Source of the DNA: an uncultured Sphingomonadales bacterium
GTDB lineage: Bacteria > Pseudomonadota > Alphaproteobacteria > Sphingomonadales > Sphingomonadaceae
DNA length: 64,000 nucleotides
Direction of reading: 5' to 3'
Assembly (NCBI GenBank): GCA_903839675.1
Contig: CAIMDB010000034.1
Span: 99,830-163,829, forward strand
Below the pieces are notes generated by a model that made no database searches, was not told where the DNA came from, and saw only the letters and a program-made list of their open reading frames with translations. Position 1 is the stretch's first letter; every line of letters starts with the position of its first letter. This document shows, piece after piece, positions 14,425 through 56,071 of the stretch. Position numbers and translations under genes: made by a program.

Positions 14425-14436
14425 CGCACACCTTGG

Positions 14437-17108: not shown

Positions 17109-17110
17109 AC

Positions 17111-19632: not shown

Positions 19633-19642
19633 GACGCGCGGA

Positions 19643-20287: not shown

Positions 20288-20443
20288 CTTTGCGTCCCTT
20301 GTAACTGCCAAGGCCGCACCCGGAGGCTCCGTGTACAACCCATCCACTCAGGACTTCGTTGTGCGCCAAAGAGGTGAAGATACCGTTAGGAACGAATTGT
20401 TTTTGGCATCATTCTGCGGCTTTTCTGGCCGCCAAACATGACG

Positions 20444-35643: not shown

Positions 35644-35683
35644 GCGCCTGTCCACTTTGGACAGTCATTGAAGGATTTTAGTC

Positions 35684-37120: not shown

Positions 37121-37175
37121 CGGGACGGAAAAACTTACAACAACACTGCGTATTTTTTAAGAGGGGGAACAGAGA

Positions 37176-38637: not shown

Positions 38638-39561
38638 CTAGCGCGGAATGGCGAGCGTATCCGCCGCCGCTTTGATCCGCGCGACAGCAGCAGCGTCAGT
38701 GCCGAATATCTGCAGGGCCTTGTCCCGCGCCTGACGCGCTTTGTCGGCCTGACCCATGACCATGCGGGCGCGCATCAGCCGCAGCCACCCGGCTTCGTTC
38801 TTGCCGTCCGCGGCCAGCTTGCGCTCCAAACTCTCAACCATTTGACTGACCATGGCCTGCTGCTGGCTGGGCGGTAGCGAGGAGGCCTGCGCCAACTGAC
38901 TGGCGGTTGGTCCCGGAATAGCATCCGTTGCTGGAGTACTCGGCATCCGCGTCGGCGCTGATGCGACCATCCGGCCAGACACATCAATCTTGTGTTCGCG
39001 CGCGACCTTCTCAATTGTGTCGCGCACCCCCTGCTCCCAAGGCGCGCCCTTTGGCGTGTCATTCAAAAGAGCGATCCAATCGTTGATCGCTCCCTTGCTG
39101 TCGCCGATCAGATCCTTCTGAACGCCCAGAAAATATCGGGCCCGCGGGTCCTGCGGATCAATGGCAATGGCTCTGCGGAAGGCCGATACGGCTTCGTCCG
39201 CAAACGGGCCTGTGGCGTCCTGCACAAGCGATTCGCCGAGCGAAGACCAATAATCACCAGTGTTGGGAGATATCTGTGTCGCTTTGCGATAGGCTTCAGC
39301 CGCCTTTGCATAGGCACCCATGTTGAAGTGGGACCAGCCGAGCATACGCCAACCTTCCGCATCATCCGGATTGCTGGCAAGCTTCTGCTCCAATTTGGCA
39401 ATAGAATCGTCGACACCCTTTTGAGCCACTTGTGAACTACCGGCGCCTAATGGTGCTTTTTCATCAATAGATCGATAAACGGACCATGAAATAGCCGAAA
39501 TGGCCAATACAATAGAACCAATTAGAATATAATTAGAACGAATTTCAAATCTCTTTGGCAT
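38638..39561 (-). CDS. Membrane-anchored TPR protein, CcmI/NrfG-like cytochrome c biogenesis factor
   Basis: N-terminal TM, tandem TPRs (DDAEGWRMLGWSHFNMGAYAKAAEAYRKA...), C-terminal CcmI-like region; divergent from the multiheme cluster. Confidence 0.75.
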   Translation of the reverse strand: MPKRFEIRSNYILIGSIVLAISAISWSVYRSIDEKAPLGAGSSQVAQKGVDDSIAKLEQKLASNPDDAEGWRMLGWSHFNMGAYAKAAEAYRKATQISPNTGDYWSSLGESLVQDATGPFADEAVSAFRRAIAIDPQDPRARYFLGVQKDLIGDSKGAINDWIALLNDTPKGAPWEQGVRDTIEKVAREHKIDVSGRMVASAPTRMPSTPATDAIPGPTASQLAQASSLPPSQQQAMVSQMVESLERKLAADGKNEAGWLRLMRARMVMGQADKARQARDKALQIFGTDAAAVARIKAAADTLAIPR

Positions 39562-39699: not shown

Positions 39700-42141
39700 G
39701 TGACGAGCACCTATAAGGTGGCAATTGTCGGATCAGGTCCGGCGGGATTGAGTGCAGCTGCACGCGCAGCGCAGCTTGGGATGGCACACATACTTCTGGA
39801 AAAGACGGATCACCTTTCTGATACGATCTTCCGTTACCAGAAGGGCAAGCACGTCATGGCGACGCCAAGCCAACTGGTGCTGCGGTCCGACTTTGATTTT
39901 GACGCCGGCAAGCGCGAGAAAATCCTCCAGACTTGGAACGATCAGGCCGCCAGCCAAAACGTGCAGGTCCGCTATCGGTCGGAAGTGACGGCCATCACCG
40001 GCGCACCGGGAGCTTTCACTATCAAACTGGCCGATGGCGACACTATCAACGCCGAGACTGTCATCCTTGCCATCGGGACACAGGGGAATCCAAACCTGAT
40101 GCGGTGTCCGGGCGGTGATCTTCCGCATGTCGAATATCAGCTCGACGATCCGACAGCCATTTTGGACGAACATATTACCGTCATTGGCGCAGGCGACGCC
40201 GGGATTGAAAACGCTTTGGGCCTCGCAGCAGACCCTGAGCAGCGCAATGTCGTGACGATCGTCAATCGCTCCGCTGACTTCAGCCGGGCAAAAGACGCCA
40301 ACGTCAAAGCGCTAACATCTGCGGCCGAAGAAGGTCGTATCACCATCCTGACGGAAACGTCGACCAACCGGATCGAACCTGAGCACATCGTTCTCGACAC
40401 GCGCGACGGTGAATTGCGTATCCCGTGCAACCGCATCATCGCGCGGATGGGCTCAGCCCCACCCCGTGGCTTTGTGGAAAGCTGCGGCATTGAATTCAGC
40501 AGTAAGGATCGGGAAGCCTTCCCTATCCTCTCACCCGTGTTTGAATCGACGGCGCCCGGCATCTTCGTGATCGGCGCCCTCGCAGGCTATCCCCTGATCA
40601 AGCATTGCATGAACCAGGGCTATGACGTTGTCGAATTCATCAACGGCAACACCAATCTCAAGCCCGCCGATGAACCGATTTTGGAAGCCAAATTCAGCAG
40701 CCTCCCCGGCAATCGATCCGTTGACGAATGGCTGGACCTGCTGCGGACAGAAATCGACATCCTGCGCGATCTGACGCCGTTGCAAATGCGCGAGTTCACA
40801 CTCGACAGTGATGTCAGCTTTGTCCGCAAGGGAGATGTGATCTTTGACCGCGGAGCGCCCGGTTCTTCCTTGTTCAACGTTGCTACCGGCGGCGTCCATG
40901 TCCAGGTAAACCCCAGCGATCCAAGCATTGTTGTCCCCATCGGCAAAGGCGCGATGTTTGGGGAAGTCGGACTAATTTCCGGCCGCAAACGCGGTGCCAC
41001 GGTGGTCGCGGCTGAAGACAGCATCCTGATGGAAATCCCCCGCAATGCTGCGTTGAAGCTGATTGCGACCGTACCGGCTGTGAAGCGGGCCGTGACGCGC
41101 GTATCGATCGAGCGCCAGTTGCTTCAGCTTTTCAAGGCCGGCTTGAGCCCTTCCGACATCGCAGGGGTCGTTGAAAGCGCCGAGACAATGAGCGTCCGCG
41201 CCGGTGAGTCCATCATTGCCGAGGGTGATGAAAGTTACGATATTTACGTCATTCGCGTCGGATCCATGGTCGTTGAGCGGACGATCGCCGGAAAGACGGT
41301 ATTCATCTCTTACCTCCCCGCAGGCTCCTATGTCGGGGAAATGGCGCTGATCGAGGGTGGACGCAGAACAGCTTCGGTGCGCGCCGCAGTGAAATCCGAA
41401 GTCATCAAACTGAACGGCGATGCATTCCGCGGCTTGCTCGACCGCAATCCGGCGCTCCTCGAGCGGCTGAAGGTCGATATGGCGACGCGCAAAGACGTCA
41501 ACGCGCATATCGAAACGATGAAGAGCACCTTCTCTGACGTGGCAGACATGTATTCGTCGGTTGCAAGCTTCCTCGTCGAAAACGGCATCGGCGAAGCAAC
41601 CGACGTGTTGCTCATCGATGAACGGCTCTGTGTCGGTTGCGACAATTGCGAGAAGGCTTGTGCCGACAGCCATGATGGATTGTCGCGCTTGGACCGCGAA
41701 GCGGGCAAGACCTACGCCCATCTTCACGTTCCGACGTCCTGCCGCCACTGTGAACACCCACATTGCATGGCCGATTGCCCGCCGAACGCGATCCATCGTG
41801 GGATGGACGGGGAAGTCTTCATTGACGACACCTGTATCGGTTGCGGAAATTGCCAGCGTGGCTGTCCTTATGGGGTGATCCGTATGGACAAGGTGCCGCC
41901 GAAAAAACCGCCGCTTCTTAACTGGCTGTTATTCGGCAGTGGCCCCGGACCCGGCGAACCCAATGCCAAATGGGCCAAGAAACATGGCAATCCGGAAGCC
42001 CCAAAAAAGGCGATTAAGTGCGACATGTGCGCGGGCCTTGAAGGCGGCCCAAGCTGCGTGCGGGCCTGCCCGACCGGCGCTGCCATCCGCATTTCGCCGG
42101 AACAGTTCCTGAGCGTTTCTCATATGCAGAAGGGCAACTAG
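39700..42141 (+). CDS. FAD/NAD(P) oxidoreductase, two cyclic-nucleotide-binding domains and NrfC/DmsB-like four-[4Fe-4S] ferredoxin in one chain
   Basis: Two dinucleotide motifs (VGSGPAGLSAA, IGAGDAGIENAL); CNB cassettes FGEVGLISGRKRGATV and VGEMALIEGGRRTASVRA; Cys clusters CVGCDNCEKAC, CRHCEHPHCMADC, CIGCGNCQRGC, CDMC...CVRAC. Confidence 0.92.
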   Translation: MTSTYKVAIVGSGPAGLSAAARAAQLGMAHILLEKTDHLSDTIFRYQKGKHVMATPSQLVLRSDFDFDAGKREKILQTWNDQAASQNVQVRYRSEVTAITGAPGAFTIKLADGDTINAETVILAIGTQGNPNLMRCPGGDLPHVEYQLDDPTAILDEHITVIGAGDAGIENALGLAADPEQRNVVTIVNRSADFSRAKDANVKALTSAAEEGRITILTETSTNRIEPEHIVLDTRDGELRIPCNRIIARMGSAPPRGFVESCGIEFSSKDREAFPILSPVFESTAPGIFVIGALAGYPLIKHCMNQGYDVVEFINGNTNLKPADEPILEAKFSSLPGNRSVDEWLDLLRTEIDILRDLTPLQMREFTLDSDVSFVRKGDVIFDRGAPGSSLFNVATGGVHVQVNPSDPSIVVPIGKGAMFGEVGLISGRKRGATVVAAEDSILMEIPRNAALKLIATVPAVKRAVTRVSIERQLLQLFKAGLSPSDIAGVVESAETMSVRAGESIIAEGDESYDIYVIRVGSMVVERTIAGKTVFISYLPAGSYVGEMALIEGGRRTASVRAAVKSEVIKLNGDAFRGLLDRNPALLERLKVDMATRKDVNAHIETMKSTFSDVADMYSSVASFLVENGIGEATDVLLIDERLCVGCDNCEKACADSHDGLSRLDREAGKTYAHLHVPTSCRHCEHPHCMADCPPNAIHRGMDGEVFIDDTCIGCGNCQRGCPYGVIRMDKVPPKKPPLLNWLLFGSGPGPGEPNAKWAKKHGNPEAPKKAIKCDMCAGLEGGPSCVRACPTGAAIRISPEQFLSVSHMQKGN

Positions 42142-42144
42142 GCC

Positions 42145-43023
42145 ATGGCTTTTCTCGCCAATAACAAGGCCGCGAAACGTGCCGGGCCATCGAGCCATGT
42201 GTCGTTTCTGAAATATGCGGATTACCGTTGGCTCAAAATTGCATCCGGATTGTCAGCGCTGTCGATCCTGATCTACGCCCTTATCGATGTCGAGCCACGC
42301 CACAGCGGTAACAGCTGGTACGGCTATACGCTCGGCACAATCGGCGCCATTCTCATCATCTGGCTTGCCCTTCTCGGCTGGCGCAAACGCTCCATCAAGC
42401 CCGGCCAGTGGACGCTCAAGTCCTGGGTCTCCGCACATGTCTGGCTGGGGCTATCGCTGATCATTGTCGCGACACTCCACTGTGCGTTCCAGTTCGGCTG
42501 GAACGTCCATACGCTCGCCTACGTCTTAATGATGATCGTCATCCTTTCGGGCATTTATGGCATTTGCGCCTATACCATTCTGCCCAAACAACTCAGCGCG
42601 AACCGGGGCGATATGACGCAGGTCGAAATGCTCGACAATCTGCGCAGTATCGACCGACAGTTGCACGACGCAACGCAGCCGTTGAGCACCGAATTGGCCA
42701 ATATCATCGGCGCGTCGCTCAATGCTGATCCGTTCGCGGGCTCCATCCTTGCGCGCTTGAAAAACCAATACCCATCCTGCCCGACGCAGCACGCCTTTGA
42801 AACGGTTGGTGCCGCGTCGCGATCCAAAGCGACCGGCAATGTGGACGACATCGTTCGCGCCGCACAATTGCTCTCACGCAAGGTGACCGCGCTGGCCAAC
42901 ATTCGTCGGCATCTTCAGTTGAAGGCGCAGCTTGAGATTTGGCTCTATTTCCACGTCCCTGTGACGTTCGCGCTGATTGCGGCCCTTACGGCGCACGTTG
43001 TCAGCGTCTTCTTCTATTGGTGA
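42145..43023 (+). CDS. Polytopic membrane protein, probable b-type cytochrome
   Basis: Several TM helices with His in or near the membrane (WVSAHVWLG, ATLHCAFQFGWNVHTLAYV, FHVPVTFALIAALTAHVVSVFFYW); 4 bp after the flavoprotein gene. Confidence 0.7.
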   Translation: MAFLANNKAAKRAGPSSHVSFLKYADYRWLKIASGLSALSILIYALIDVEPRHSGNSWYGYTLGTIGAILIIWLALLGWRKRSIKPGQWTLKSWVSAHVWLGLSLIIVATLHCAFQFGWNVHTLAYVLMMIVILSGIYGICAYTILPKQLSANRGDMTQVEMLDNLRSIDRQLHDATQPLSTELANIIGASLNADPFAGSILARLKNQYPSCPTQHAFETVGAASRSKATGNVDDIVRAAQLLSRKVTALANIRRHLQLKAQLEIWLYFHVPVTFALIAALTAHVVSVFFYW

Positions 43024-43030
43024 TCTGCAC

Positions 43031-44818
43031 ATGATTTTTACCGTTCACCACGTCAGCTTCACCAATGACGGCCGCGAAATCATCCGGTCGAAGGACTTTG
43101 ATCAACCGGCTCTGTCGGTTGGCCGCGGCCCGGGCTGCGATATTGCCTTGCCCGACGTGTCTGTGCCGCTTGACCATGCCCGCATCACTGCCAACACGGA
43201 TGGGACGATATCGGTAGACGCCGTTGCCGGCGCGCCCTTCATGGCAAATGGCCGCAGTGTCACAACCCTTATCATTGGTCGCGGCGATGGTGCCGTTATC
43301 AACTTTGGCAGCCATGAATTCATCATCAGCCGCGCCGCAGAAGACGTGGTCATCCGTGTTGAACGCAAGAGCGCTGTGGCCGATTCCAGCGAAGCCAAAG
43401 ACAGCAAGTTTGTCTTTTCCCTTGGCAAGGTTGGCGGCAAAATGCGCCTTCCCGCGTGGATCCTGGTTGTCACCATTCTCGCAACTTTGCTGGTCTGGCC
43501 GATTTGGACCTGGTCAAACTTCCATATGGCCAAAAGCCGCGCGGATACATTCCACGCAGACCAAAGCTGGTCGTCCGGCAAGCTCTCGCTCGGCCATGCG
43601 GCTCTGGCAAAGGACTGTCAGGCCTGCCATGTAAACGCCTTTGAATCCGTGCGCGACAGCAGTTGCGTTGCATGCCACACGAAGGTGCACGACCACGCCG
43701 ATCCCAAAAGCCTGATGGGCGCCAAGGGTGAACCCAATCCATTCCGCCAGGTTCTGAATGCGACATCTCGCATGTTCAATCGGCCTGAAAATAGCTGTGT
43801 CGACTGCCATATGGAGCATGAAGGGGCTGTCTCCGCGCCGGCAACGCCGCAGCGCTTCTGCACCGATTGCCATGTCGGTTTGAGCACGCGGGTCAAGACA
43901 ACCAAACTTCTCGACGTTGGTGATTTTGCGAAGGATCACCCCGAATTCCGCCCATCAATTGTGACATCTCCTGGCGAACCGCCGACGATTCAGCGAATTT
44001 CCCTGGCTGCAAAGCCCAAGGAAAACACGGGTCTAAAATTCCCACACGCATTGCATCTGTCCTCCACCAACGGTGTCGCGAGAATGGCGATGACGCTTCC
44101 GGCGTATAAAGGCGCGGGAAGTGCCGGCCTGAAATGCAGCGATTGCCATACCGCATCGGCTGACAAGTCAACGTTTGTCCCGGTCGAGATGGAAAAGAAC
44201 TGCGGCGCCTGCCACAGCCTTGGATTTGGAAAGGTTGGGAACACAGTTCTTACCCTACGTCATGGTGATGTTCCCCAGACCATCGCTCAGATCAGAGCTC
44301 TGTATCGCGGCGTTGGTCCACAAAATCCCGCGGGCAACGGTTTCCTTCAGGGCCGTCACGTGCCGGGAAGCAGCAGCCCCACACCGCGCTTTGATGTCGG
44401 AAGTTCAAGCCCGGATGCTGCTATCCGCCGCGTCTTCTCAAAGGGTGGCACCTGCTATGATTGCCATCAGGTTGTGGCCCCGGCCAATCCGGCAAGTCTC
44501 AACTTCACCATCAAGTCAGTCTCCGTGCCGAAGCACTATATGCCAAAGGCATGGTTCGACCATAAGGCGCATGACACGTCTAAATGTGAAAGCTGCCACG
44601 CGGCACCGAGGTCAAAGACCGCGGCCGACGTTCTCATGCCGGGAATTAAATCCTGCCAGAGCTGCCATGCAGGTGCCACGCCCGAGCATGATAAGGTCCC
44701 GTCGACGTGCTCCATGTGTCACGGCTATCACTTTGAAGACCCCTTGAAGGCGAAGCCTGCGGCGAGCGGATCGAAAACAACCGCCGCTCAAAAAAGGCGG
44801 GGTACAACAACCGGATAA
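43031..44818 (+). CDS. FHA domain - TM - decaheme cytochrome c fusion
   Basis: N-terminal FHA-like ALSVGRGPGCDIALPDVSVPLDHARI; TM LPAWILVVTILATLLVWPIWTW; ten CXXCH (CQACH, CVACH, CVDCH, CTDCH, CSDCH, CGACH, CYDCH, CESCH, CQSCH, CSMCH). Confidence 0.92.
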   Translation: MIFTVHHVSFTNDGREIIRSKDFDQPALSVGRGPGCDIALPDVSVPLDHARITANTDGTISVDAVAGAPFMANGRSVTTLIIGRGDGAVINFGSHEFIISRAAEDVVIRVERKSAVADSSEAKDSKFVFSLGKVGGKMRLPAWILVVTILATLLVWPIWTWSNFHMAKSRADTFHADQSWSSGKLSLGHAALAKDCQACHVNAFESVRDSSCVACHTKVHDHADPKSLMGAKGEPNPFRQVLNATSRMFNRPENSCVDCHMEHEGAVSAPATPQRFCTDCHVGLSTRVKTTKLLDVGDFAKDHPEFRPSIVTSPGEPPTIQRISLAAKPKENTGLKFPHALHLSSTNGVARMAMTLPAYKGAGSAGLKCSDCHTASADKSTFVPVEMEKNCGACHSLGFGKVGNTVLTLRHGDVPQTIAQIRALYRGVGPQNPAGNGFLQGRHVPGSSSPTPRFDVGSSSPDAAIRRVFSKGGTCYDCHQVVAPANPASLNFTIKSVSVPKHYMPKAWFDHKAHDTSKCESCHAAPRSKTAADVLMPGIKSCQSCHAGATPEHDKVPSTCSMCHGYHFEDPLKAKPAASGSKTTAAQKRRGTTTG

Positions 44819-44979
44819 TGGCCTGCATGAGGTGTGATAACGTTGGCGCCGATTCGGCTCAAAAAATCATCTTAAATTGTTGTAATATATAAATTTAATC
44901 TGCTTCAGTTTAAGAAATTGGAAAGGTGGCTCCCTTAGCGGCAAAAACAGAAGTCGCGGGGACTACAAACCACGATAGG

Positions 44980-45011
44980 GCGCGACCTTCGCTGTTAGAT
45001 GTGGGTCGCGC
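44980..45011. promoter_or_regulatory. Inverted repeat GCGCGACC-N16-GGTCGCGC upstream of the phosphodiesterase-like gene
   Basis: Perfect 8-bp arms read from the sequence; no T-tract, 31 bp before the ATG at 45043. Confidence 0.4.
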
Positions 45012-45042
45012 AGCCGCCATGAGCTCTACTAGAGGCTAAAAA

Positions 45043-45885
45043 ATGCTGATTGCGCAAATTACTGACATTCATCTGGGGTTTGAACCCGACAATCCCGGTG
45101 AATTTAATCGCCAGCGATTTGACGCCATTCTCCGGAAATTAGGTGCCATGACGCCGCTGCCGGACATGCTCATCTGCACAGGCGACCTTACCGACAAAGG
45201 CGATGTCGGCAGTTATCAGCAGCTAAAAGAAGCGCTGACGGCCGCGCCATGTGAAACACATCTTTGCATTGGCAATCACGACGAGCGTGGGAATTTTCTA
45301 GAAGTTTTTCCTGATACGCCAACAAGCGATGGCTTTGTCCACTATACCGTCGACAAGGGCGCGTTCGTGCTTGTTGTGCTCGACACCCTCGAACCCGGTG
45401 AACATGGTGGTGCCTTTTGTAAACGCCGGGCGGCCTGGCTTTCTGCCACGCTGGACGCTTGTTCGGAAAGGCCAGTTGTCATCGCCCTTCACCACCCACC
45501 TGTCCGACACGGTATCGAATGGATGGATGTGGAACCGGATGCGGAGTGGGTCAAAACTCTCTCTGGCGTTCTGAGGAACCGCAGCAATATCCGGGCAATG
45601 TTGGCAGGCCATGTCCACCGCCCCTTCACAACGACCTTTGAAAATCACCTTTTGGCGGTCACCGGATCTTCCGCCCCGCAGGTGGCATTGGAACTGGCAC
45701 CCATCGATCCATCAAATCCCGACAATCGACCGATGATCGTATCTGAAGAGCCGGGCTATTCGCTTCATCACTGGACAGGTGATGACTTAGTTACCTTTTT
45801 CCAGACGGCTGGTGATTATCCGACGTTGGCCCGTTTTGACGCCTCTTTGCAGCCCTTGGTTCAAAGTTTAGTGCCGGACGCCTAG
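45043..45885 (+). CDS. Calcineurin-like metallophosphoesterase, class III cyclic-nucleotide phosphodiesterase (CpdA-like)
   Basis: QITDIHLG, CTGDLTDKGD, IGNHDERG, LAGHVHRPF: full metallophosphoesterase motif set. Confidence 0.87.
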   Translation: MLIAQITDIHLGFEPDNPGEFNRQRFDAILRKLGAMTPLPDMLICTGDLTDKGDVGSYQQLKEALTAAPCETHLCIGNHDERGNFLEVFPDTPTSDGFVHYTVDKGAFVLVVLDTLEPGEHGGAFCKRRAAWLSATLDACSERPVVIALHHPPVRHGIEWMDVEPDAEWVKTLSGVLRNRSNIRAMLAGHVHRPFTTTFENHLLAVTGSSAPQVALELAPIDPSNPDNRPMIVSEEPGYSLHHWTGDDLVTFFQTAGDYPTLARFDASLQPLVQSLVPDA

Positions 45886-46169
45886 TCGAAGTCGCCCAAG
45901 CAGATTGAGGCCGATCCCTGTCGGCGAGCTCCCACGAGAGACACCTCTCACCTTGGCCGGTTATCGTCTCCATTTCGGCATAAACAATCCAGCGATTTAC
46001 TTGATTTTTCTCGATATTTTCCGCAACCCTCTGGGTCGTCAACGCTCCACTATCGAGTTGCTGACCGGATGATGCCGCGGCCCTGATTTTCTTCAGTTTT
46101 CGCGCCTTGTTCGTGAAATTGGCGAGGGGGGCTTGGCAATTTCGTAATGGCCATTTTGGGGGCGTTTTC

Positions 46170-47576
46170 ATGGGCAGTTCGGATCCCGTCCAAAGTGGCG
46201 CTTCATCAGGCGGATTTACGCGCCTATTCGGTTTCCTGTTTGCCCTGCTGACGATTGGCGCTGCCGCCTATGTCATGCTGGCTGGCGCGCAACCTGCGAC
46301 AGCAACCGATGTCGCGCAAAACGTGCATCTGGGTGTCGCAAGCTGCGCTGGCTCAACCTGTCACGGGCGCCAAGTCGCCGACGGTGCTGTTGTCCGTCAG
46401 GATGAACTGCTGCGCTGGCAGGAAGACTCCTCCACATCCGGCGCTCACAGCCGCGCGTTCCGCACGTTGGGCACGGCGCGGTCCGCGGCCATTGCCCGGA
46501 ACCTCGGCTTGGCTTCTGCAGAAACAGCACCCATGTGCCTCGGCTGCCATAGTGACAATGCGAGTGCGACTGGCCCGAAACATCAGCTTTCCGACGGCGT
46601 GGGATGCGAATCCTGCCATGGCGGAGCTTCAGGATGGATCAGCAGCCATTATGCCGTTGGCGCATCCCATGAGCGCAATGTCGCGCAAGGCTTGATCCCG
46701 CTGGACAACCCGAAGAGCCGCGCTTCAAATTGCCTCGATTGCCACTTCGGATCCTCAAAGCCCGGCCAGTTTGTCAGCCATCGGATCATGGCCGCAGGGC
46801 ACCCCCGCGTCACCTTTGAACTCGACCTGTTCACTGGCCTTCAGGCCCATCACAATGAAGATGCGGACTATGTCCGCCGTAAGGGGAAGCGCGACCCGGT
46901 TCAGGATTGGGCGGTCGGACAGGCAATGGCGCTAGATCGCGCCCTTTCCCTCTGGTCCGATGCTGGGCTTGGTCAGGAAGGCATCTTCCCTGAATATTAC
47001 TTCTTCGATTGCCACAGCTGCCACCGCCGTATTTCGGACGATCCTTCCTTCCGGGCCGCAGCTGTCGCCAATCCGGGCCGCCCCATTCCGCGCGGTATGG
47101 CGCCATTCAGTGATGGCAACATGATCATGCTCAGCGCAGCTGCACGACGGACGTCCTCTGCCTTGGCCCAGCGCTTTGATGCGGACAGCAAGGCCTTCCA
47201 CGCGGCCCTGGCCAGTGATCGGCCAAAGGCGCTGAAGGCAGCAGCCCGGCTCCGCAGCACCACGAATGCGCTTTTGGCGGCATTTGGGAGCAAGCGCTTC
47301 TCATCGGGCGACATCAAGGCACTTGTGGCCAGCATCAGCGATGCAGCCATGCGCCCGCGCTACACCGACTATGATGGCAGCACGCAGGCCGTCATGGCCG
47401 TCGACACTCTCCTGAATGCTTTGGTGAACAACGGATCAGTTTCAGCCGGACAGGCAGCTTCCATCCGTGCCGAGATCAACCGCGCCTATGCCGCTGTCAA
47501 AGATCCGTATGGCTACCAGCCTGCGGCATTCCGGTCTGCTTTATCTCGGGCAAGCAACGCGATTGGGGCCCTCTAA
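46170..47576 (+). CDS. Membrane-anchored multiheme cytochrome c (cytochrome c554-like), 5 predicted hemes
   Basis: N-terminal TM; heme motifs CAGSTCH (CX4CH), CLGCH, CESCH, CLDCH, CHSCH; ATG at 46170 preferred. Confidence 0.88.
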   Translation: MGSSDPVQSGASSGGFTRLFGFLFALLTIGAAAYVMLAGAQPATATDVAQNVHLGVASCAGSTCHGRQVADGAVVRQDELLRWQEDSSTSGAHSRAFRTLGTARSAAIARNLGLASAETAPMCLGCHSDNASATGPKHQLSDGVGCESCHGGASGWISSHYAVGASHERNVAQGLIPLDNPKSRASNCLDCHFGSSKPGQFVSHRIMAAGHPRVTFELDLFTGLQAHHNEDADYVRRKGKRDPVQDWAVGQAMALDRALSLWSDAGLGQEGIFPEYYFFDCHSCHRRISDDPSFRAAAVANPGRPIPRGMAPFSDGNMIMLSAAARRTSSALAQRFDADSKAFHAALASDRPKALKAAARLRSTTNALLAAFGSKRFSSGDIKALVASISDAAMRPRYTDYDGSTQAVMAVDTLLNALVNNGSVSAGQAASIRAEINRAYAAVKDPYGYQPAAFRSALSRASNAIGAL

Positions 47577-49519
47577 TGAGGCCTTGGCAGTTTAAGCCAG
47601 TATCAACCCTCGTTCTTAGTGCGTTCCTGCTTGCCAGTTGCGGACCCGGTTCAGGTGAAAGCAGCACCCCGACCACAATTACGCCGACGACGACAACCAG
47701 TTCGACCAGCAGCTATCCCGCCAGCACGATCGAGGCTTTAACAACGGCTGAAGTCGAACAGATCCTCGCACAGGCGATTGAAGAAGCTTCTGCCCGACGG
47801 TTGCCGGCGACAATTGCCGTCGTTGATCGCGTCGGCAATGTGCTTGGCGTTTTCAATATGAGCGGTGCGCGGGCCACCGCTGTCACCCGCGCGGCGGCCA
47901 ATGGTCAGAGCACAGATGCCCAGAACCTGACGGTTCCGGCAACAGCTGCCGCCATCGCTAAAGCGGTTACGGCGGCCTATCTTTCATCAAGCGGCAATGC
48001 CTTTTCCACGCGGACCGCCAGCCAGATTGTTCAGGAACATTTTCCACCCGGGCCAAGCACGGTCGGACTTGAAAGCGGCCCGCTCTTTGGCGTGCAGTTC
48101 AGCCAGTTGCCCTGCTCTGACCTCAGCGCACGCTTCGGCCAAGCCGCTATTGGTCCGAAACGCTCCCCACTCGGGATGGCCGCAGACGCGGGCGGCCTGC
48201 CACTCTACAAAAACGGCGTGGTCGTTGGTGGGATCGGCATCATGGCCGATGGCGACTACGGCTTTGATCTCTCAACGCTCGACATCGATCAGGACGACGA
48301 GGAATTCATCGCCCTTGCTGGCACAACCGGCTTTGCCGCGCCAGAGACTATTCAGGCAGGTCGTATCTCAGTTGACGGCACCTTCCTCCGCTTTGCGGAC
48401 GTCACCTCCACAGGCCTATCGGCACGCGGGACAGCGCGCTCTTTCGCAGCACTCTCAGGCACCCTTGGGTCTCTCGTTGCAGTTCCGGGATATGCCAATG
48501 CCGTCATCACGGCCGGCACGCCCTATGGCACCGAAGCCTCCGGCATCCGCCGCGCGACCAGCGCCGAGTTTTCAGACAGCGATGCCTTCCTCCTCACCAA
48601 CGGTCAGGGCAGTGCCCGTTTCCCCATTCGGGCCGGTTCGGAAACGCTGGCCGCGCTGACGCCGGCTGAAGTCCGGACGATCCTTGAGGAAGCCTTCCGC
48701 ATCGTGAAGCGGGCGCGGGCGCAGATCCGCAAGCCCCTCGACAGCAAGGCCGAAGTGACCGTGTCTGTAGTGGACTCCAATGGCGTCGTGCTTGGGCAGG
48801 TCCGTTCCCCCGACGCGCCGGTCTTCGGGATTGATGTCTCGCTCCAAAAGGCCCGCACAGCGGCCTTCTTCTCAAACCCTGGCGCCGCGTCGGACCTCCA
48901 AGGAACGAGCGACAGCAACGTCTCTCAATATCTGACAGCCTACCGCGCTTTCCTCTCCAACCAATCGCAGCTGGTGGGGGAAAAGGCGATCAGCGCACGC
49001 TGGATCGGTCTCTTGGCCCGCCCCTATTTCCCAGATGGGCAAATCGACCGTCCGCACGGGCCGCTTTCCCGCCCCATGGGCCAATTCAGTCCCTTCTCAA
49101 ACGGCCTGCAATCCGCCCTCATCGTCCAGGATTTGGCCGCTCATCTCGCCTTCGTGGGGGGCGCCAGCCAGACGGATACACCTGCCCGGTGCACCAACCT
49201 GCCTGCGGTCTCCGGTGGTCTGAACCGGCTTCAAAACGGCATTCAGATCTTTCCGGGTGCCGTACCCATCTATCGCGGAACCACGCTGATTGGGGCGATC
49301 GGGACGTCTGGAGACGGGATCGATCAGGATGACATGATCAGTTTCCTCGGCCTTGCGAACGCTGCGGAGAAGATTTCCGGCATCGGCAATGCGCCAAGCA
49401 GCCTGCGCGCATCGGCCATCTTGTTCTCACAGGCAGGAAACACGGCCCTGCCCTACGCCCAATGTCCCTTTGCGCCCTTCCTCGACACGGCGGCGCAAAA
49501 CGTATGCCAAGGCAAATAA
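47576..49519 (+). CDS. Lipoprotein with two GlcG/HbpS (DUF336)-like heme-binding domains
   Basis: Lipobox LLASCGPG; ALTTAEVEQILAQAIEEASARRLPATIAVVDRVGNVLGVF and ALTPAEVRTILEEAF...VTVSVVDSNGVVLGQVR...KARTAAFFS. Confidence 0.75.
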   Translation: MRPWQFKPVSTLVLSAFLLASCGPGSGESSTPTTITPTTTTSSTSSYPASTIEALTTAEVEQILAQAIEEASARRLPATIAVVDRVGNVLGVFNMSGARATAVTRAAANGQSTDAQNLTVPATAAAIAKAVTAAYLSSSGNAFSTRTASQIVQEHFPPGPSTVGLESGPLFGVQFSQLPCSDLSARFGQAAIGPKRSPLGMAADAGGLPLYKNGVVVGGIGIMADGDYGFDLSTLDIDQDDEEFIALAGTTGFAAPETIQAGRISVDGTFLRFADVTSTGLSARGTARSFAALSGTLGSLVAVPGYANAVITAGTPYGTEASGIRRATSAEFSDSDAFLLTNGQGSARFPIRAGSETLAALTPAEVRTILEEAFRIVKRARAQIRKPLDSKAEVTVSVVDSNGVVLGQVRSPDAPVFGIDVSLQKARTAAFFSNPGAASDLQGTSDSNVSQYLTAYRAFLSNQSQLVGEKAISARWIGLLARPYFPDGQIDRPHGPLSRPMGQFSPFSNGLQSALIVQDLAAHLAFVGGASQTDTPARCTNLPAVSGGLNRLQNGIQIFPGAVPIYRGTTLIGAIGTSGDGIDQDDMISFLGLANAAEKISGIGNAPSSLRASAILFSQAGNTALPYAQCPFAPFLDTAAQNVCQGK

Positions 49520-49524
49520 TCGCC

Positions 49525-51399
49525 ATGCGGATGCGCACCCTTCCGCTCCTGCTATTGTCTGCCGGACCGCAGATTGCAGCCGCTCAGGAAGCGCCTGTGT
49601 TAGACACGCCGCCACCCGCCGATGTTGTTAGCGAAGGCGACAGCTTGCCCCCCCTCTTTGAGGTGGACGCAGACGGGGCGCTGATCGTCGGTCGGCGTAT
49701 CCCCGGTCGTGAGCGCGCCTTGCCGGACAAGGTCACTCAGGAAAACATCGGCGCCGTTCGCGCGCCACCACCAGAGGCCTTTCCGACCGACCAAGTACCA
49801 ATCCCTGATCGCTGGCGCCTCATCCAGACGCTTGGCATCGTTAAGGAAAAGTGGTGGGACCCGTATAACCAGAACACCTACAAGGGTGACCGCCCGATTG
49901 ATCTGCACAAGAAGCCCAAATGGCTGCCGATCAAGAGCGAGGACTGGTTCCTCGCGGCGTCATTTATTTCCGATACGGTGGTTGAGCCACGCAGCTTTCC
50001 GCAACCGGTCGGGCGACAGGTGAATGAGACTGTCGGCGATTTGGACGTTTTCGGGCGGGCATCAAGCGTCGTGGCTTCGCAGACATTCATTGCCGCAGCC
50101 TCGCTGTTCAAAGGATCGACGGCGTTCAAGCCGCCAGAAATCGAATATAAAATCGCCCTTGCCTTCAATACGTCCTTTGTCGACGTGTCTGAGCGTCGCT
50201 TGCTCTTTGTCCAGCCGTCACGCCCCAGCCATCGGTTTGACCATTTTCTGGGTGTTCAGGAACTGTTCGTCGATAAGCATCTACGCAACGTCTCTGACCG
50301 TTATGATTTTGATAGCGTCCGCATCGGCATTCAGCCTTTCCAAGCTGATTTCCGCGGCTTCTTGTTCAACGACCAGCAGCTTGGCCTCCGCTATTTCGGC
50401 AATCGCGACAACAACCGCGTCCAGTATAATTATGGCGTTTTCTGGCGGCTGGAAAAGGACACGAACTCAGGCCTGAACAGCCTTGTCAAAATGCCGCGCA
50501 AAGATTGGGTCGCATTCGCCAATGTGTATCGGCAGGACTTTCCCATCCCAGCCGTCACCAGCCAGTTGACCGTGGTTTACAACATGAACCGCGAGGCCAA
50601 GAACATCCACATCGATGATAACGGCTTCCCCGTTCGTCCGGCGCTTTTGGGCAATCTGCGCGGCCGCAACTACGACGTGGTTTATCTCGGCTATAATGCG
50701 GATGGCCATGCGGGACGGATTAATCTCACCACCTCGCTTTATGCCGCACTTGGCAGTGACCGAAACAGCTTCTTCACCGGAAAGTCGGCCCAGATACGTG
50801 CGGGCTTTGCCGCCGCCGAGGCAAGCTATGACAAGGATTGGGCGCGTTTCCGCGTGTCCGCGCTTTACGCCACAGGCGACAAAGATCCTTATGACAATCG
50901 CGAAACGGGCTTTGACGCCATTGTCGAAAACCCGATCTTCGCCGGTGCAGACACCAGCTACTGGATCCGCCAGTCGCTTCCCTTCGCAGGCGGCGGCCGT
51001 GTCATCGGCATTAATGGCCGCAACGGTGTTCTTAATTCGCTTCGTTCCTCCAAGGATGAAGGGCAGAGCAATTTCAACAATCCCGGCACGATTCTTCTCG
51101 GCGCCGGGGCGGATTTCGACATCACACCGCAATTCCGCCTATCCACAAATGCCAACCATCTTTGGTTCGCCAACACAGCCACTGTCCGCGAACTCCGCAA
51201 CGAAGGATCAATCCCCCGCGCCATCGGCTGGGACCTATCAGCAGCCGCGATTTACAGGCCATCCATGATCCAGAACGTCGTGTTCCGCCTCTCCGGCGCC
51301 ATGCTGGAACCGGGGGCTGCATTCAAAGATCTCTACACAACCACCAGTGGCAACAAACGTCACTATTCCGTCCTTTTTAACACGGTTTTGTCATACTGA
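49525..51399 (+). CDS. Large outer-membrane beta-barrel protein, candidate porin partner of the adjacent multiheme cytochrome
   Basis: Signal peptide MRMRTLPLLLLSAGPQIAAAQ; alternating amphipathic strands; terminal HYSVLFNTVLSY; between multiheme genes in an operon. Confidence 0.7.
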   Translation: MRMRTLPLLLLSAGPQIAAAQEAPVLDTPPPADVVSEGDSLPPLFEVDADGALIVGRRIPGRERALPDKVTQENIGAVRAPPPEAFPTDQVPIPDRWRLIQTLGIVKEKWWDPYNQNTYKGDRPIDLHKKPKWLPIKSEDWFLAASFISDTVVEPRSFPQPVGRQVNETVGDLDVFGRASSVVASQTFIAAASLFKGSTAFKPPEIEYKIALAFNTSFVDVSERRLLFVQPSRPSHRFDHFLGVQELFVDKHLRNVSDRYDFDSVRIGIQPFQADFRGFLFNDQQLGLRYFGNRDNNRVQYNYGVFWRLEKDTNSGLNSLVKMPRKDWVAFANVYRQDFPIPAVTSQLTVVYNMNREAKNIHIDDNGFPVRPALLGNLRGRNYDVVYLGYNADGHAGRINLTTSLYAALGSDRNSFFTGKSAQIRAGFAAAEASYDKDWARFRVSALYATGDKDPYDNRETGFDAIVENPIFAGADTSYWIRQSLPFAGGGRVIGINGRNGVLNSLRSSKDEGQSNFNNPGTILLGAGADFDITPQFRLSTNANHLWFANTATVRELRNEGSIPRAIGWDLSAAAIYRPSMIQNVVFRLSGAMLEPGAAFKDLYTTTSGNKRHYSVLFNTVLSY

Positions 51400-54300
51400 T
51401 GTCACAGCTTTTCCGCCTCCTCCTCGTCATCGCGCTCATGGTGCCGTCCGGTCTCCTCGCGTCTGACGCTGAGAAGCCGGTAGCGCGAGATTACACCCTT
51501 GTCCGCGCTCCTGCCGCGCCCGCCGGGCAGACGGCGGATCAGGCCAAGGCAAAAAGCATCGGTTGTGTGTCCTGCCACACCAAGACCGACGCCTACAGCA
51601 TGCACAAATCAGAGGCTGTCGTGCTCGGCTGCACCGACTGCCATGGTGGCAATGCGACGGTGTCGGCGCCCGACAACGCAAAGGAAGGCGATAAAGCTTA
51701 CACGACCGCGCTGTCCAAAGCGCATGTCATGCCGCGCTTTCCTAAGGCTTGGAACTGGCCGTCTTCGGCCAACCCGAAGCAGAGCTACACGCTGCTAAAT
51801 AAGGAAAGCCGGGAGTTTGTAAGGTTCAACAACCCGTCCGACTACCGCGTTGTGCGGGACTCGTGTGGCGCGTGCCATATGTCGGTGATTGAGGCGACTG
51901 ATCGCTCCATCATGTCGACCGGCGCAATGCTCTGGGGTGGTGCCGCTTACAACAACGGCATTGCCCCGTTCAAAAACTACATCTTTGGCGAAGCTTATAC
52001 CGAGAAAAGCGAGCCTGCGAAAATCCTGTCACCGGGGGCAACTCCCGGCACAGTGACGACGGAGCAGGAAGCTCGCGGCGCGCTCGCCGCGCTCTACCCA
52101 CTGCCCACATGGCAGGTCGTTCCACCGGCTGACATTTTCCGCGTATTCGAACGCGGTGGCCGCACGAACGGAACGCAGTTCCCTGAAGTCGGTCTCCCGA
52201 ACTCAACGGGCCAGTTGCAGCGCTTGGAAGAACCGGGCCGTCCCGACATTCGCCAGTCCAACCGCGGCGCCGGCACGGGCCTGCGCGTCGCCATTCCGGT
52301 GCTCAACATCCACAAGACCCGCCTCAACGATCCCTTCACCTGGTTCATGGGGACAAACGATCAGCCGGGCGATTACCGCCATTCGGGCTGCGCAAGTTGC
52401 CACGTGCCATATGCCAACAGCCGTGAAGCACCACAAAGCCTCACCTATGCCAAATTCGGCAATGACGGACAGACGTTCACGCTTGATCCGACCATCGCGG
52501 ACAAGATGGAAGGCCAGAAGCGCGCGGCCTTGGGCGACAGTCATGGCAAGGGACATGGTGAAGGGCATGGAGATGTCCACGGCCACGGCGAAAAAAAATC
52601 CGGGCATGATGACGGGCACGGAAAGAGCCACGCTCCTGATCCACGCAAGGAAAGCGGACACCCGCTTGAGCACGCCTTCACACGCGCCATTCCGACCGCG
52701 CAGTGCATGAATTGCCACATGCATCAGCCGAACATTTTCCTGAATTCCTTCCTTGGCTACACCATGTGGGACTATGAAAGTGACGCGCCGCTGATGTGGC
52801 CGAAGAAGCAGAAATATCCGACAGCTGCGGAAACTCGCAAGGTTCTCGACCGCAATCCTGAAGGGGCGGCCCCAAGAGGCAAATGGTCCGATGTCGAATT
52901 TGTCCGCCGCGTCGCCGACGACATTAATCCACAGGCGAAAGACACGCAGTTTGCGGACTATCATGGCCACGGCTGGAACTTCCGCGCGATCTTTAAGCGC
53001 GACCGTGAAGGCAATCTGCTGGATGCCGAAGGCAAGGTCGTCTCAAATGACGATCCGGAAAAGTTCCGCCGAAAGGGCGAAGGTAACTTTCCACCTATTG
53101 GTACGAACCCCGGCAAATCTGTCCATCTCATGGACATTCATGCCGAAAAGGGCATGCAGTGCGTGGATTGCCACTTCTCGCAGGACAGCCACGGCAATGG
53201 CCTCATCTATGGTGAAGTCGCCAACGCAATCGAGATCGGCTGCAAGGATTGCCATGGGACAACCAAGGCTGATCCAACCCTGCTGACATCCGGACCCGCG
53301 GCTCCTCCCGAAGGTAACAACCTTGCCTTGATCCGAAACCCGGATGGCCAGCGTCGCTTTGAGTGGAAGGAAGACGATAACGGCAAGCGCTATCTCGTTC
53401 AGCGCTCCGTGCTCGATCCCAAGCTGGAATGGCGCATGAGCCTCGTCAAAGACAGCGTTGATCCGGACAGCCCGAATTTCAACCTGAAGGCGGCCCGATC
53501 AAAACTGATGGCCAAAACAGGTTCTGAAACCGGCAAGTTTGAATTCGGCGCCGGTATTGCGGACGATCAGTTGGCGCACAAGGAAAGCGAAATGGCATGT
53601 TTCACTTGCCATCTGAGCTGGACGACAAGCTGCGGCGGCTGCCATCTGCCTATTGAGGCAAACTGGAAGACCACATCCCACAAATATGAGGGGGAAGAGA
53701 CGCGCAATTTTGCGACTTACAACCCCCAAGTCGCGCGTGATGACATGTTCCAGCTTGGCCGCCATCAGACCACTAAGGGCAACATCATTACGCCAGTGCG
53801 GTCGACGTCTGCCCTGATCCTGTCCTCCACCAACGTGAACCGCGAACGCATCTATGTGCAGCAGCCGCCGATTTCTGCGGTCGGCTTCTCATCGCAGGCC
53901 TTTGCACCGCACTTCCCGCACACCGTCCGCACGACGGAGACCAAGAAGTGCAGCGATTGCCATGTGTCGGTGGATAACGACAACAACGCGATCATGGCCC
54001 AGTTGCTTCTGCAGGGAACAAACTTCGTCAATTTCGTCGGCATGTACGCGTGGACGGGTCTAGAAAACGGCGTCGAAGCGGTGCGCGTGACCGAGTATGA
54101 CGAACCTCAGGCCGTCTTCGGATCCTATTTGCAGAAGTACGCTTATCCCGACTTCTACAAGGCCCATGTCGACCGGAATAAGCGCGAGCTCATCAACTGG
54201 ACGCGCGGAAAATCCTTCGACAAGCGGCTCAGCGGTGAAACCGGCCTCAAGGAAATCATCCGTAACGAGGTGAAGGGCACCGATGATGCCGTCCGTTGTC

Positions 54301-55442
54301 TGCAGATGCGCGGTGAGTATCTTTATGTTGCAGAAGGCCGTGCCGGCTTCCGCGCCTACGACATCGCCTCTGTTGCGAACAAGGGCGTGTCAGAACGCAT
54401 TCTGACCGGCCCCTTCTCCCAACTTGGCCACGACACGCAGGTGAAGTCGACCAACGCAACTTGCATGGCGCTGGCAACCAACCAGCCGATCAACCCGGCA
54501 AAGAATACGCCGGAAATGCGCCGCATGAACCAGGAACAACCGTTCCACCCGATCTATGACTATGCGTTTGTGACGGACAGCGTCGAAGGTCTGATCCTTG
54601 TCGACATCAACACATTGGCTGATGGTGAGCCGCGCAATAACTTCCTGCGGCGCGCGCTCACATGGAATGAGGGCAACATCCTCAAGGGGGCGACGCACAT
54701 CACACTCGGCGGGCATTATGCCTATGTCGCAGCGGATGCAGGTGTCGTCGTTCTTGATCTCAACGATCCGCTGAAGCCCCGCGTCATGCAGGTGCTCCCG
54801 GCCAAGGGTCCCAGAGCATCGGCGCTGCAATTCCGCTATCTCTGGGTCACTGATGAAGATGGCGTGAAGCTGTTCGACATCACCAATGCACGCAAGATCG
54901 TTGCTGTCCCGGAAGCGACCGTACCGCTCAGCAACGCCCGTCGCATCTACATCGCGCGGACATACGCCTATGTCGCAGCCAAGCAGGACGGTCTTGTCAT
55001 CCTGAATGTGACCAACCCGGAAAAGCCAACCATCTATCAGAAGGTGACGTTTGACGGCCTGCTGAATGATGCTGAGGATGTGATCGTGGGCTCCACCAAC
55101 GCATCGCTCTTTGCCTATGTGGCGGACGGCCGCAACGGCATGAAGGTCCTGCAGCTCACATCGCCGGCTTCGCAGCCAAATTACTATGGCTTCTCCCCGG
55201 CACCCAAGCCTGAGCTGATCGCTTGGGCGAAGACCCCCTCGCCTGCTCTCGCGATGTCAAAGGGGCTCGACCGGGATCGCGGTGTGGATGAAACAGGCGG
55301 ACAGATGGCGGTGTTCGGCCGCTTGGGCTCACGCCCGTTCAACCGTGAAGAGATGGAACGCTTCTATCGCAACCGCGGTGGCTTCCTGTACCGCGTGAGC
55401 GATAAGCCGACCTTTGCGGATTGGGTTCCAAAGAAGAAGTGA
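51399..55442 (+). CDS. Giant (1347 aa) decaheme cytochrome c with His/Gly-rich insert and C-terminal LVIVD-type beta-propeller
   Basis: Signal peptide; ten CXXCH (CVSCH, CTDCH, CGACH, CASCH, CMNCH, CVDCH, CKDCH, CFTCH, CGGCH, CSDCH); repeats such as HYAYVAADAGVVVLDLNDPLKPRVM, TYAYVAAKQDGLVILNVTNPEKPTI. Confidence 0.93.
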   Translation: MSQLFRLLLVIALMVPSGLLASDAEKPVARDYTLVRAPAAPAGQTADQAKAKSIGCVSCHTKTDAYSMHKSEAVVLGCTDCHGGNATVSAPDNAKEGDKAYTTALSKAHVMPRFPKAWNWPSSANPKQSYTLLNKESREFVRFNNPSDYRVVRDSCGACHMSVIEATDRSIMSTGAMLWGGAAYNNGIAPFKNYIFGEAYTEKSEPAKILSPGATPGTVTTEQEARGALAALYPLPTWQVVPPADIFRVFERGGRTNGTQFPEVGLPNSTGQLQRLEEPGRPDIRQSNRGAGTGLRVAIPVLNIHKTRLNDPFTWFMGTNDQPGDYRHSGCASCHVPYANSREAPQSLTYAKFGNDGQTFTLDPTIADKMEGQKRAALGDSHGKGHGEGHGDVHGHGEKKSGHDDGHGKSHAPDPRKESGHPLEHAFTRAIPTAQCMNCHMHQPNIFLNSFLGYTMWDYESDAPLMWPKKQKYPTAAETRKVLDRNPEGAAPRGKWSDVEFVRRVADDINPQAKDTQFADYHGHGWNFRAIFKRDREGNLLDAEGKVVSNDDPEKFRRKGEGNFPPIGTNPGKSVHLMDIHAEKGMQCVDCHFSQDSHGNGLIYGEVANAIEIGCKDCHGTTKADPTLLTSGPAAPPEGNNLALIRNPDGQRRFEWKEDDNGKRYLVQRSVLDPKLEWRMSLVKDSVDPDSPNFNLKAARSKLMAKTGSETGKFEFGAGIADDQLAHKESEMACFTCHLSWTTSCGGCHLPIEANWKTTSHKYEGEETRNFATYNPQVARDDMFQLGRHQTTKGNIITPVRSTSALILSSTNVNRERIYVQQPPISAVGFSSQAFAPHFPHTVRTTETKKCSDCHVSVDNDNNAIMAQLLLQGTNFVNFVGMYAWTGLENGVEAVRVTEYDEPQAVFGSYLQKYAYPDFYKAHVDRNKRELINWTRGKSFDKRLSGETGLKEIIRNEVKGTDDAVRCLQMRGEYLYVAEGRAGFRAYDIASVANKGVSERILTGPFSQLGHDTQVKSTNATCMALATNQPINPAKNTPEMRRMNQEQPFHPIYDYAFVTDSVEGLILVDINTLADGEPRNNFLRRALTWNEGNILKGATHITLGGHYAYVAADAGVVVLDLNDPLKPRVMQVLPAKGPRASALQFRYLWVTDEDGVKLFDITNARKIVAVPEATVPLSNARRIYIARTYAYVAAKQDGLVILNVTNPEKPTIYQKVTFDGLLNDAEDVIVGSTNASLFAYVADGRNGMKVLQLTSPASQPNYYGFSPAPKPELIAWAKTPSPALAMSKGLDRDRGVDETGGQMAVFGRLGSRPFNREEMERFYRNRGGFLYRVSDKPTFADWVPKKK

Positions 55443-55502: not shown

Positions 55503-55682
55503 TTACTTGGAAGTGCTGACCGGAAAGCCGGGCTGATTTGGTGTCCCCTGCCAGGCATAGCCTGCAACAGCCAACATCAAGGCTGCGCCGAGAAGCTCAA
55601 GCGCGGTGCGGGAAAATCGACCTGACCACCACAAGGCACCAAAGGTCGCGGCACAGAGAATTAAGACGCTGATCCAGGCCAT
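55503..55682 (-). CDS. Short membrane protein resembling the N-terminal membrane part of CcmI (59 aa from internal ATG)
   Basis: MAWISVLILCAATFGALWWSGRF...GAALMLAVAGYAWQGTPNQPG: two TM segments; abuts ccmH. Confidence 0.6.
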   Translation of the reverse strand: MAWISVLILCAATFGALWWSGRFSRTALELLGAALMLAVAGYAWQGTPNQPGFPVSTSK

Positions 55683-56071
55683 TACTTTTTCTTTCGTTTG
55701 AAACGCCGGGAATAGAGCAGGCCTGCGCCGCCCAAGGCGATGAGCGGGATCAGCCACAAAGGCGCGGTCAACTCGTTGACCTCCGGCTTCAGACTAACCC
55801 ACTGGCCATAGCGGCTGACGAGCCAAGCCCGCACCGTCTCAGGGCTTTCGCCTGCGGCAATACGCTCCCGGACAAGGCGACGCATATCACGCGCAAGATC
55901 TGCATTGCTGCCAGAAATAGGCTGGCCCTGACACACCACGCAGCGCAGCGTATCCATCAGCGCGACGGCCTGCGTTTCCTGATTGACGTCTGGCAGAGAT
56001 TCCTCGGCATAATCCTGCCCAAAAGCGGGTTGAGCCAAACATAAGGTTGCCGCGATCAGAAAACGACGCAT
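55682..56071 (-). CDS. ccmH: Cytochrome c-type biogenesis protein CcmH
   Basis: LRCVVCQGQPISGSNADLARDMR; C-terminal TM. Confidence 0.95.
   Translation of the reverse strand: MRRFLIAATLCLAQPAFGQDYAEESLPDVNQETQAVALMDTLRCVVCQGQPISGSNADLARDMRRLVRERIAAGESPETVRAWLVSRYGQWVSLKPEVNELTAPLWLIPLIALGGAGLLYSRRFKRKKK

Follow-up and report, generated by a model that had tools for sequence, protein, structure and literature searches.

Extracellular electron transfer has been studied mainly in metal-respiring or metal-oxidising specialists, and the question raised here is whether a family of heterotrophic bacteria may carry a complete route of its own for electrons across the cell envelope. The locus that raises it consists of seven genes at positions 39700-55442 of a 64,000-nucleotide stretch of DNA (64 kb, hereafter the window) from an uncultured bacterium of the Sphingomonadaceae (GenBank assembly GCA_903839675.1, contig CAIMDB010000034.1, positions 99,830 to 163,829 of the forward strand), which encode a flavoprotein, an inner-membrane protein, three multiheme cytochromes c, a lipoprotein and a predicted outer-membrane barrel. 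An earlier note, made from the sequence alone, had taken them for an undescribed and unusual trans-envelope electron conduit. Judged from sequence comparison, the seven genes form one co-conserved system, the inner half of which is homologous to clusters of the PCC4 type, a putative class of conduit described by He et al. 2017 (PMC5566968), whereas the outer half differs. On a narrow balance of probability we favour the view that the products make up one trans-envelope chain, in which a PCC4-type inner half carries electrons outward, under the tuning of a cyclic nucleotide, to an acceptor that lies at the outer membrane or beyond it.

The seven genes and their co-conservation

All seven genes are intact reading frames (open reading frame check; Table 1), which nearly abut within two same-strand blocks, block 1 at 39700-44818 and block 2 at 46170-55442, just as the earlier note had placed them, apart from the start of the FHA-decaheme gene, which is set here at ATG 43031 and not at TTG 42977. 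The previous figure of about 25 c-type hemes is also upheld: the sites in the FHA-decaheme cytochrome, the pentaheme cytochrome and the second decaheme cytochrome (51399-55442, hereafter DECA) sum to 25 (10, 5 and 10). These counts are steady among homologues, with ten sites in 55 of 57 FHA-decaheme proteins, four CXXCH and one longer motif in all 79 pentaheme proteins and ten sites in 86 of 87 DECA proteins, the exceptions including truncated frames.

A search with the DECA protein found it in 72 of 201 Sphingomonadaceae genomes and 40 of 96 genera, mostly at about 70% identity, and "unusual" is therefore too strong a word. The inner-membrane protein is encoded by 71 of the 201 genomes, that is, by every DECA carrier except one genome that is 67% complete (Fisher p = 2.5e-54, a statistic that ignores phylogeny). 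In 35 of the 71 carriers the two blocks lie on separate contigs or at a distance of more than 20 kb; 11 of these have them more than 100 kb apart on one contig. Because the co-occurrence is nearly perfect although the blocks are often far apart, we regard the seven genes as one system, and the joint conservation of the blocks that the conduit proposal supposed is what the genome survey found. Of the 386 alphaproteobacteria surveyed, 29 have the barrel, and every one of these also encodes the membrane protein, while a further eight encode the membrane protein without the barrel; hence in this sample the barrel never occurs without the inner half, but the inner half can do without the barrel.

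A wider scan with the barrel (one genome per species) gave 80 loci, mostly from Sphingobium, Novosphingobium, Sphingomonas, Erythrobacter and their relatives, together with Rudaea/Lysobacterales. The blocks are neighbours in most of these loci, in varying relative orientation. In Rudaea/Lysobacterales and many further alphaproteobacterial families, the genes for flavoprotein, membrane protein, FHA-decaheme, lipoprotein, barrel and DECA form a single run (FAD-TM-FHA-LIPO-BARR-DECA), and the pentaheme gene, where found, is adjacent or nearby. Several non-sphingomonad loci also carry, between the FHA-decaheme and lipoprotein genes, a gene for an exported-looking protein of about 140-150 aa (L156:13632-14075, L160:13915-14367 and L163:13295-13720), the L156 copy of which has no Pfam family.

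A PCC4-type inner half and a different outer half

The flavoprotein has a pyridine-nucleotide-disulphide oxidoreductase fold, for which the YpdA family is the closest NCBIfam model, and a PF13247 region (44.3 bits); its 16 Fe-S cysteines are invariant in 13 homologues, and its gene lies 3 bp upstream of the membrane-protein gene. The description of a cytoplasmic NAD(P)/FAD protein with four [4Fe-4S] sites thus agrees with the Pfam domains and the cysteines, but it had overlooked two cyclic-nucleotide-binding domains (PF00027, 120 bits) and a context of cyclase and phosphodiesterase genes. The Glu/Arg pairs of the phosphate-binding cassettes, E422/R431 and E547/R556, are invariant in 13 of 13 aligned homologues, the cyclic-nucleotide-site motif is found again in 18 of 20 distant loci, and the PDB matches of these domains include the regulatory subunits of cAMP-dependent protein kinase. 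Furthermore, of 20 sphingomonad loci whose upstream sequence is long, 15 have a gene for a CHASE2-domain class III adenylate cyclase and a small partner gene ahead of the pentaheme gene, on its strand; the annotated plasmid pMSHV of S. herbicidovorans has the same arrangement, with genes for TpsB and a 2092-aa protein in between. The metallophosphoesterase gene between the two blocks, whose association with the cluster is kept in sphingomonads, encodes a member of the SpdA/CpdA-type superfamily that scores 133.6 bits with the NCBIfam SpdA model (cut-off 400). These features point to a conduit that may be tuned by a cyclic nucleotide, with cAMP as the putative ligand. As an observation apart, the TpsB-type transporter gene and the gene for the 2092-aa, exported-looking protein, which has no Pfam family, occupy the interval between cyclase and pentaheme genes in many Sphingobium-type loci (L168:2521-10674).

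The membrane protein bears the motif WX3HX13H on predicted helices 3 and 5 (H98/H112 and H270/H284) and SGXXG on helix 4. The four motif histidines are invariant in 27 of 27 homologues; the two WX3HX13H motifs occur in 26 of 27 and 27 of 27 members, and SGXXG in 25. This pattern is the hallmark of PCC3 and PCC4 inner-membrane proteins, for which two b hemes have been argued (PMC5566968), and the window protein presumably carries two b hemes as well. Its two HX13H pairs on helices 3 and 5 recall NOX and ferric reductases (PF01794), from which it differs by the lack of a fused FNR-type flavin module; the PF01794 match is weak in the window protein (E 0.0023, below cut-off) and appears in 8 of the 27 members at E<=0.1.

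In the three cytochromes, histidines outside the CXXCH motifs are conserved about as often as there are hemes (nine invariant and two at >=90% in the FHA-decaheme protein, six and one in the pentaheme, 13 and three in DECA), which would be about enough for bis-His ligation of every heme, as is typical of electron-transfer hemes. The three alignments give no sign of an open catalytic heme, which would weigh against a reductase without excluding one. The pentaheme protein has an N-terminal hydrophobic stretch that may be a signal peptide or an anchor, the alignment fitting both, and a lipobox is present in 89 of 97 homologues of the lipoprotein. PDB sequence searches with the barrel, the membrane protein and DECA gave no matches. 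An assignment of DECA to ExtM, of a selenite/tellurite operon, was considered and rejected as a family (72 bits, cut-off 800; the match is best within a short segment).

The product of 49525-51399 is probably an outer-membrane beta-barrel, as the earlier note had proposed. An AlphaFold2 model built from 41 sequences predicts 18 strands in a closed antiparallel barrel, with a mean pLDDT of 68.6 and values mostly of 80-92 in the strands; an N-terminal extension is predicted to be disordered, yet is conserved. In Foldseek this model comes closest to AlgE (5e-17; TM-score, by target length, about 0.65) and to OprD-type channels. The likeness to AlgE lies in the predicted 18 strands; on the other hand, identity is only 11-13%, the cluster contains no alginate genes and the gene context is entirely redox. 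The window gene itself belongs to no Pfam or NCBIfam family. The notion that the barrel sheathes a heme wire through the outer membrane was not borne out, as the predicted barrel is AlgE-like and much smaller than MtrB; we know of no barrel of 18-strand size that sheathes a decaheme.

PCC4 was defined by a porin, three periplasmic cytochromes with 4, 5 and 10 heme sites, a conserved inner-membrane protein and other redox proteins; in its Subgroup II a PF13247 Fe-S gene lies upstream of the membrane-protein gene, and an extracellular multiheme cytochrome is described as absent (PMC5566968). We retrieved PCC4-like loci with the membrane-protein profile, and their identity with the published clusters rests on architecture. 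Three of them (L193, L194, L197) encode an FNR-type flavoprotein with 2Fe-2S, a tetraheme cytochrome, a cyclic-nucleotide-binding Fe-S protein, the membrane protein and a decaheme, L194 also having a 5-heme gene; four others (L199, L200, L201, L203) encode a tetraheme, a 5-heme protein, a porin, an FHA-decaheme and the membrane protein, with a full FAD/Fe-S protein in the first three. (The membrane-protein frame of L199 overlaps another frame and was found by profile search.) The Fe-S protein, membrane protein, decaheme and tetraheme of such loci are homologous to those of the window (profile E 5e-50 to 7e-16 in L193, and far lower for most alphaproteobacterial PCC4-like loci).

The window resembles PCC4 in that its membrane protein has both WX3HX13H motifs and SGXXG, that a PF13247 Fe-S protein is encoded directly upstream, and that its decaheme and tetraheme-type (4 CXXCH) cytochromes have homologues in L193 and L199-L201. 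It differs in having heme sites of 4 (+1 CX4CH), 10 and 10 rather than 4, 5 and 10, with no separate 5-heme cytochrome, in adding the lipoprotein and a second, propeller-bearing decaheme with a signal-like N-terminus, and in its YpdA-like FAD domain, where the Zeta-like loci have an FNR-type flavoprotein with 2Fe-2S. The barrels differ as well: the L193 and L199 porins match each other at 2e-117 and form one family, and the window barrel profile matches neither of them. The 5-heme protein is absent from the window locus, and neither it nor the PCC4-type porin was found in the window's genome, in searches run without a positive control; no locus among those compared has both outer modules. In a tree of the membrane protein, rows with the PCC4 outer module are interspersed with rows that have the new one; the starred branches force at least three changes, the backbone being poorly resolved. 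We therefore do not call the window system a member of PCC4, because the 4/5/10 cytochrome set and the porin homology are both lacking, and take it to be, in all likelihood, a PCC4-related conduit with an exchanged outer-membrane module. The label "undescribed" fits one half only, since the Fe-S protein, five-helix b-type protein, decaheme and tetraheme of the inner half have homologues in PCC4-type clusters (PMC5566968); as far as we have found, the outer half of lipoprotein, barrel and DECA has no description in the open-access literature, nor has the seven-gene set in sphingomonads, and an earlier description elsewhere is possible.

Other arrangements of the inner half were seen in passing. 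In L191 and L192 a single frame of about 1120 aa joins the flavoprotein/Fe-S protein to the membrane protein; a 9+1-heme FHA cytochrome comes next, and no barrel is nearby. L202 and L204 have the inner half (FAD, membrane protein, FHA-decaheme, tetraheme) with neither outer-membrane module in view, and the barrel was not found in those genomes.

Direction of electron flow and competing explanations

In the chain that we favour, NAD(P)H would reduce the FAD of the 39700 protein, and electrons would run through its four [4Fe-4S] clusters, cross the inner membrane via two stacked b hemes of the five-helix protein and, through contacts between subunits, enter the FHA-anchored periplasmic decaheme and then the pentaheme. 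The outer module of lipoprotein, 18-strand barrel and DECA, the last perhaps at the cell surface, would pass them, possibly by way of the barrel, to an acceptor at or beyond the outer membrane. The two cyclic-nucleotide-binding domains of the flavoprotein would tune the flow, and the signal would be set by the CHASE2 adenylate cyclase and the phosphodiesterase, whose genes lie beside the cluster in many relatives. The direction of flow cannot be read from the sequence alone, as the earlier note had already said. We prefer outward flow, since a pyridine-nucleotide fold and low-potential clusters stand at the donor end and since electrons that leave the cytoplasm travel with the membrane potential. 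A bolder version, which we put forward tentatively and rather doubt, is a quinone-independent, cAMP-gated conduit: the CHASE2 cyclase would sense the outside, cAMP would switch the flavoprotein on, NAD(P)H electrons would reach the surface directly, by way of a NOX-like b protein with two hemes and then the 25 c hemes, and the outer module would have been swapped with that of PCC4, in either direction.

Several points weigh against an outward, cyclic-nucleotide-tuned chain. The CHASE2 cyclase is missing beside the cluster in the window's own lineage, and a barrel of the AlgE type, with 18 strands, is of small size if it is to sheathe a multiheme wire. The ferric-reductase-like fold of the membrane protein would rest on motifs, because its structure model (mean pLDDT 72.6) has no significant Foldseek match. 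The co-occurrence statistics take no account of phylogeny, although presence is patchy within the genera g1, g16 and g30. Experimental work on the system was not found in the open-access literature, and He et al. drew PCC4 as running from an extracellular donor to quinone (PMC5566968).

The last point leads to the reading in which a donor outside the cell (Fe(II), Mn(II) or a reduced organic compound, for instance) is oxidised at the surface and its electrons are delivered to the quinone pool or, with energy input, to NAD(P)+. It has precedent in the direction proposed for PCC4 by He et al., who found these clusters in Fe(II)-oxidising Zetaproteobacteria, and b-type proteins with WX3HX13H-type motifs can react with quinone (PMC5566968). 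Against it, the gene immediately before that of the membrane protein encodes a flavoprotein that combines a pyridine-nucleotide fold with four [4Fe-4S] sites, and the hosts are heterotrophs. Moreover, electron entry into NAD(P)+ would run uphill and against the membrane potential, and we judge inward flow to be improbable. Hardly more probable is a surface or periplasmic reductase of a specific small molecule (a ferric chelate, an oxyanion, a quinone or a shuttle), with the barrel as its channel instead of a cytochrome sheath. Such a role would suit a barrel with 18 strands whose nearest relatives are AlgE and OprD-type channels, and the HbpS-type lipoprotein and the LVIVD propeller could bind a ligand; yet in all three cytochromes the conserved histidines would allow bis-His ligation at every heme, no open catalytic heme is evident, and the pairing of the same inner half with another porin and pentaheme in PCC4-type loci speaks for an electron supply of general use. 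We also looked for a homologue with a proven but unrelated function and found no characterised homologue.

A divergent form of MtrCAB/PioAB or Omb-Omc shares the general part list, namely an outer-membrane barrel (with decaheme partners, as in MtrCAB, MtoAB and PioAB) and multiheme cytochromes. The earlier note had found the components unlike MtrA and MtrB, and this is confirmed: no MtrA, MtrB, MtrC or PioB family scored above cut-off in Pfam or NCBIfam, none of the 41 barrel homologues belongs to the MtrB/PioB or another porin-cytochrome barrel family of these databases, and MtrB is not among the best 50 Foldseek matches of the barrel listed. In addition, a CymA-type tetraheme for the entry of electrons from quinol is replaced by an NAD(P)H-type flavoprotein, and we consider this kinship very improbable. 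PCC3 shares the inner-membrane motif pattern and the combination of porin and multiheme cytochromes, whereas its cytochromes have medians of 34 and 21 hemes and its porins up to 42 strands (PMC5566968), against 10, 10 and 5 hemes and 18 predicted strands in the window.

Neighbouring genes and significance of the system

The features of the locus are collected in Table 1. Cytochrome c maturation-type genes (ccmI-, ccmH-, ccmG- and ccmF-like) stand on both sides of the cluster.

Table 1. Features of the conduit locus and its flanks (window coordinates)
Feature	Position	Strand	Basis and remarks
FAD protein, 813 aa: Pyr_redox (YpdA/TrxR-like), two cyclic-nucleotide-binding domains, four [4Fe-4S] sites (PF13247 region)	39700..42141	+	Pfam PF13738, PF07992, PF00027 x2, PF13247
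Inner-membrane protein, 292 aa, five predicted helices, PCC4-type, presumed di-heme b	42145..43023	+	motifs, hydropathy
FHA domain - transmembrane (TM) helix - decaheme cytochrome c, 595 aa	43031..44818	+	10 CXXCH; FHA-type matches in Pfam and PDB FHA proteins; TM 136-164
Metallophosphoesterase, SpdA/CpdA-like cyclic nucleotide phosphodiesterase (below curated cut-offs), accessory in sphingomonads	45043..45885	+	PF00149 3e-18; synteny
Pentaheme c554-like cytochrome, 4 CXXCH + CX4CH	46170..47576	+	PF13435 1.1e-9
HbpS/GlcG-type lipoprotein, 647 aa	47576..49519	+	PF03928 2.2e-24; lipobox
Predicted outer-membrane beta-barrel, 18 strands, AlgE-like, conserved disordered N-terminal extension	49525..51399	+	AlphaFold2, Foldseek
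DECA, exported decaheme with C-terminal LVIVD propeller, 1347 aa	51399..55442	+	10 CXXCH; PF08309 3e-14; N-terminal signal-like stretch
CcmI-type TPR protein adjoining the FAD gene	38638..39561	-	PF23914 2.6e-22; same arrangement in L071, L091, L168, L169
ccmH-, ccmG-, ccmF-like cytochrome c maturation genes	55682..58535	-	named from translations, not by family HMM; homologues adjoin the cluster in L036, L057, L059
Thiamine diphosphate (ThDP) enzyme and aldehyde dehydrogenase	33922..37120	+	NF006187 884 bits; synteny

The ThDP enzyme is of the acetolactate-synthase type (NF006187, cut-off 509). In the window its gene and that of the aldehyde dehydrogenase lie upstream of block 1; in 11 of 56 loci just 32-148 bp separate the pair from a pentaheme gene that follows it on the same strand, and in further loci the pair is near that gene, whereas only 3 of 18 conduit-free genomes of the family have close ThDP homologues (>=57%). 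Though the sample is small, the correlation hints that the conduit may be fed by carbon metabolism that yields NAD(P)H. More broadly, the stretch 33922-38531 has genes for the ThDP enzyme, an aldehyde dehydrogenase and an NADP-glutamate dehydrogenase, and in many relatives such genes occur together with the conduit, often with the pentaheme gene directly downstream.

Beyond the cluster, a PycTM gene (PF18967, Pycsar effector; 59309-59875, minus strand) adjoins a GAF-GAF-PAS class III cyclase gene (59878-62169, minus strand), and the two are possibly a Pycsar-type defence pair or a membrane cyclase unit. Because it stands beside the effector gene, this cyclase was not adopted as the conduit's cAMP source. 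An exosortase/exopolysaccharide-type gene cluster, which contains the XrtA genes of the earlier note, lies at 9766-20347. As to replicons, conduit genes occur on large plasmids typed as conjugative, all eight in L168 (Sphingobium herbicidovorans pMSHV) and block 2 in L169 (Sphingopyxis indica pMC4), and also on eleven Sphingobium replicons of 0.9-1.3 Mb.

According to these results, about one third of the genomes sampled from a family that consists of culturable aerobic heterotrophs (Sphingobium, Novosphingobium, Erythrobacter, Sphingomonas) have a complete and tightly conserved candidate conduit; catabolic degraders are among the carriers, and some copies are plasmid-borne. They also suggest that PCC4-type conduits are modular, with one inner half and at least two outer halves, and that they carry cyclic-nucleotide-binding domains, a link unmentioned in the main text of He et al. 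2017 (PMC5566968). Ordinary laboratory strains thereby offer a way to test what the PCC4 class does.

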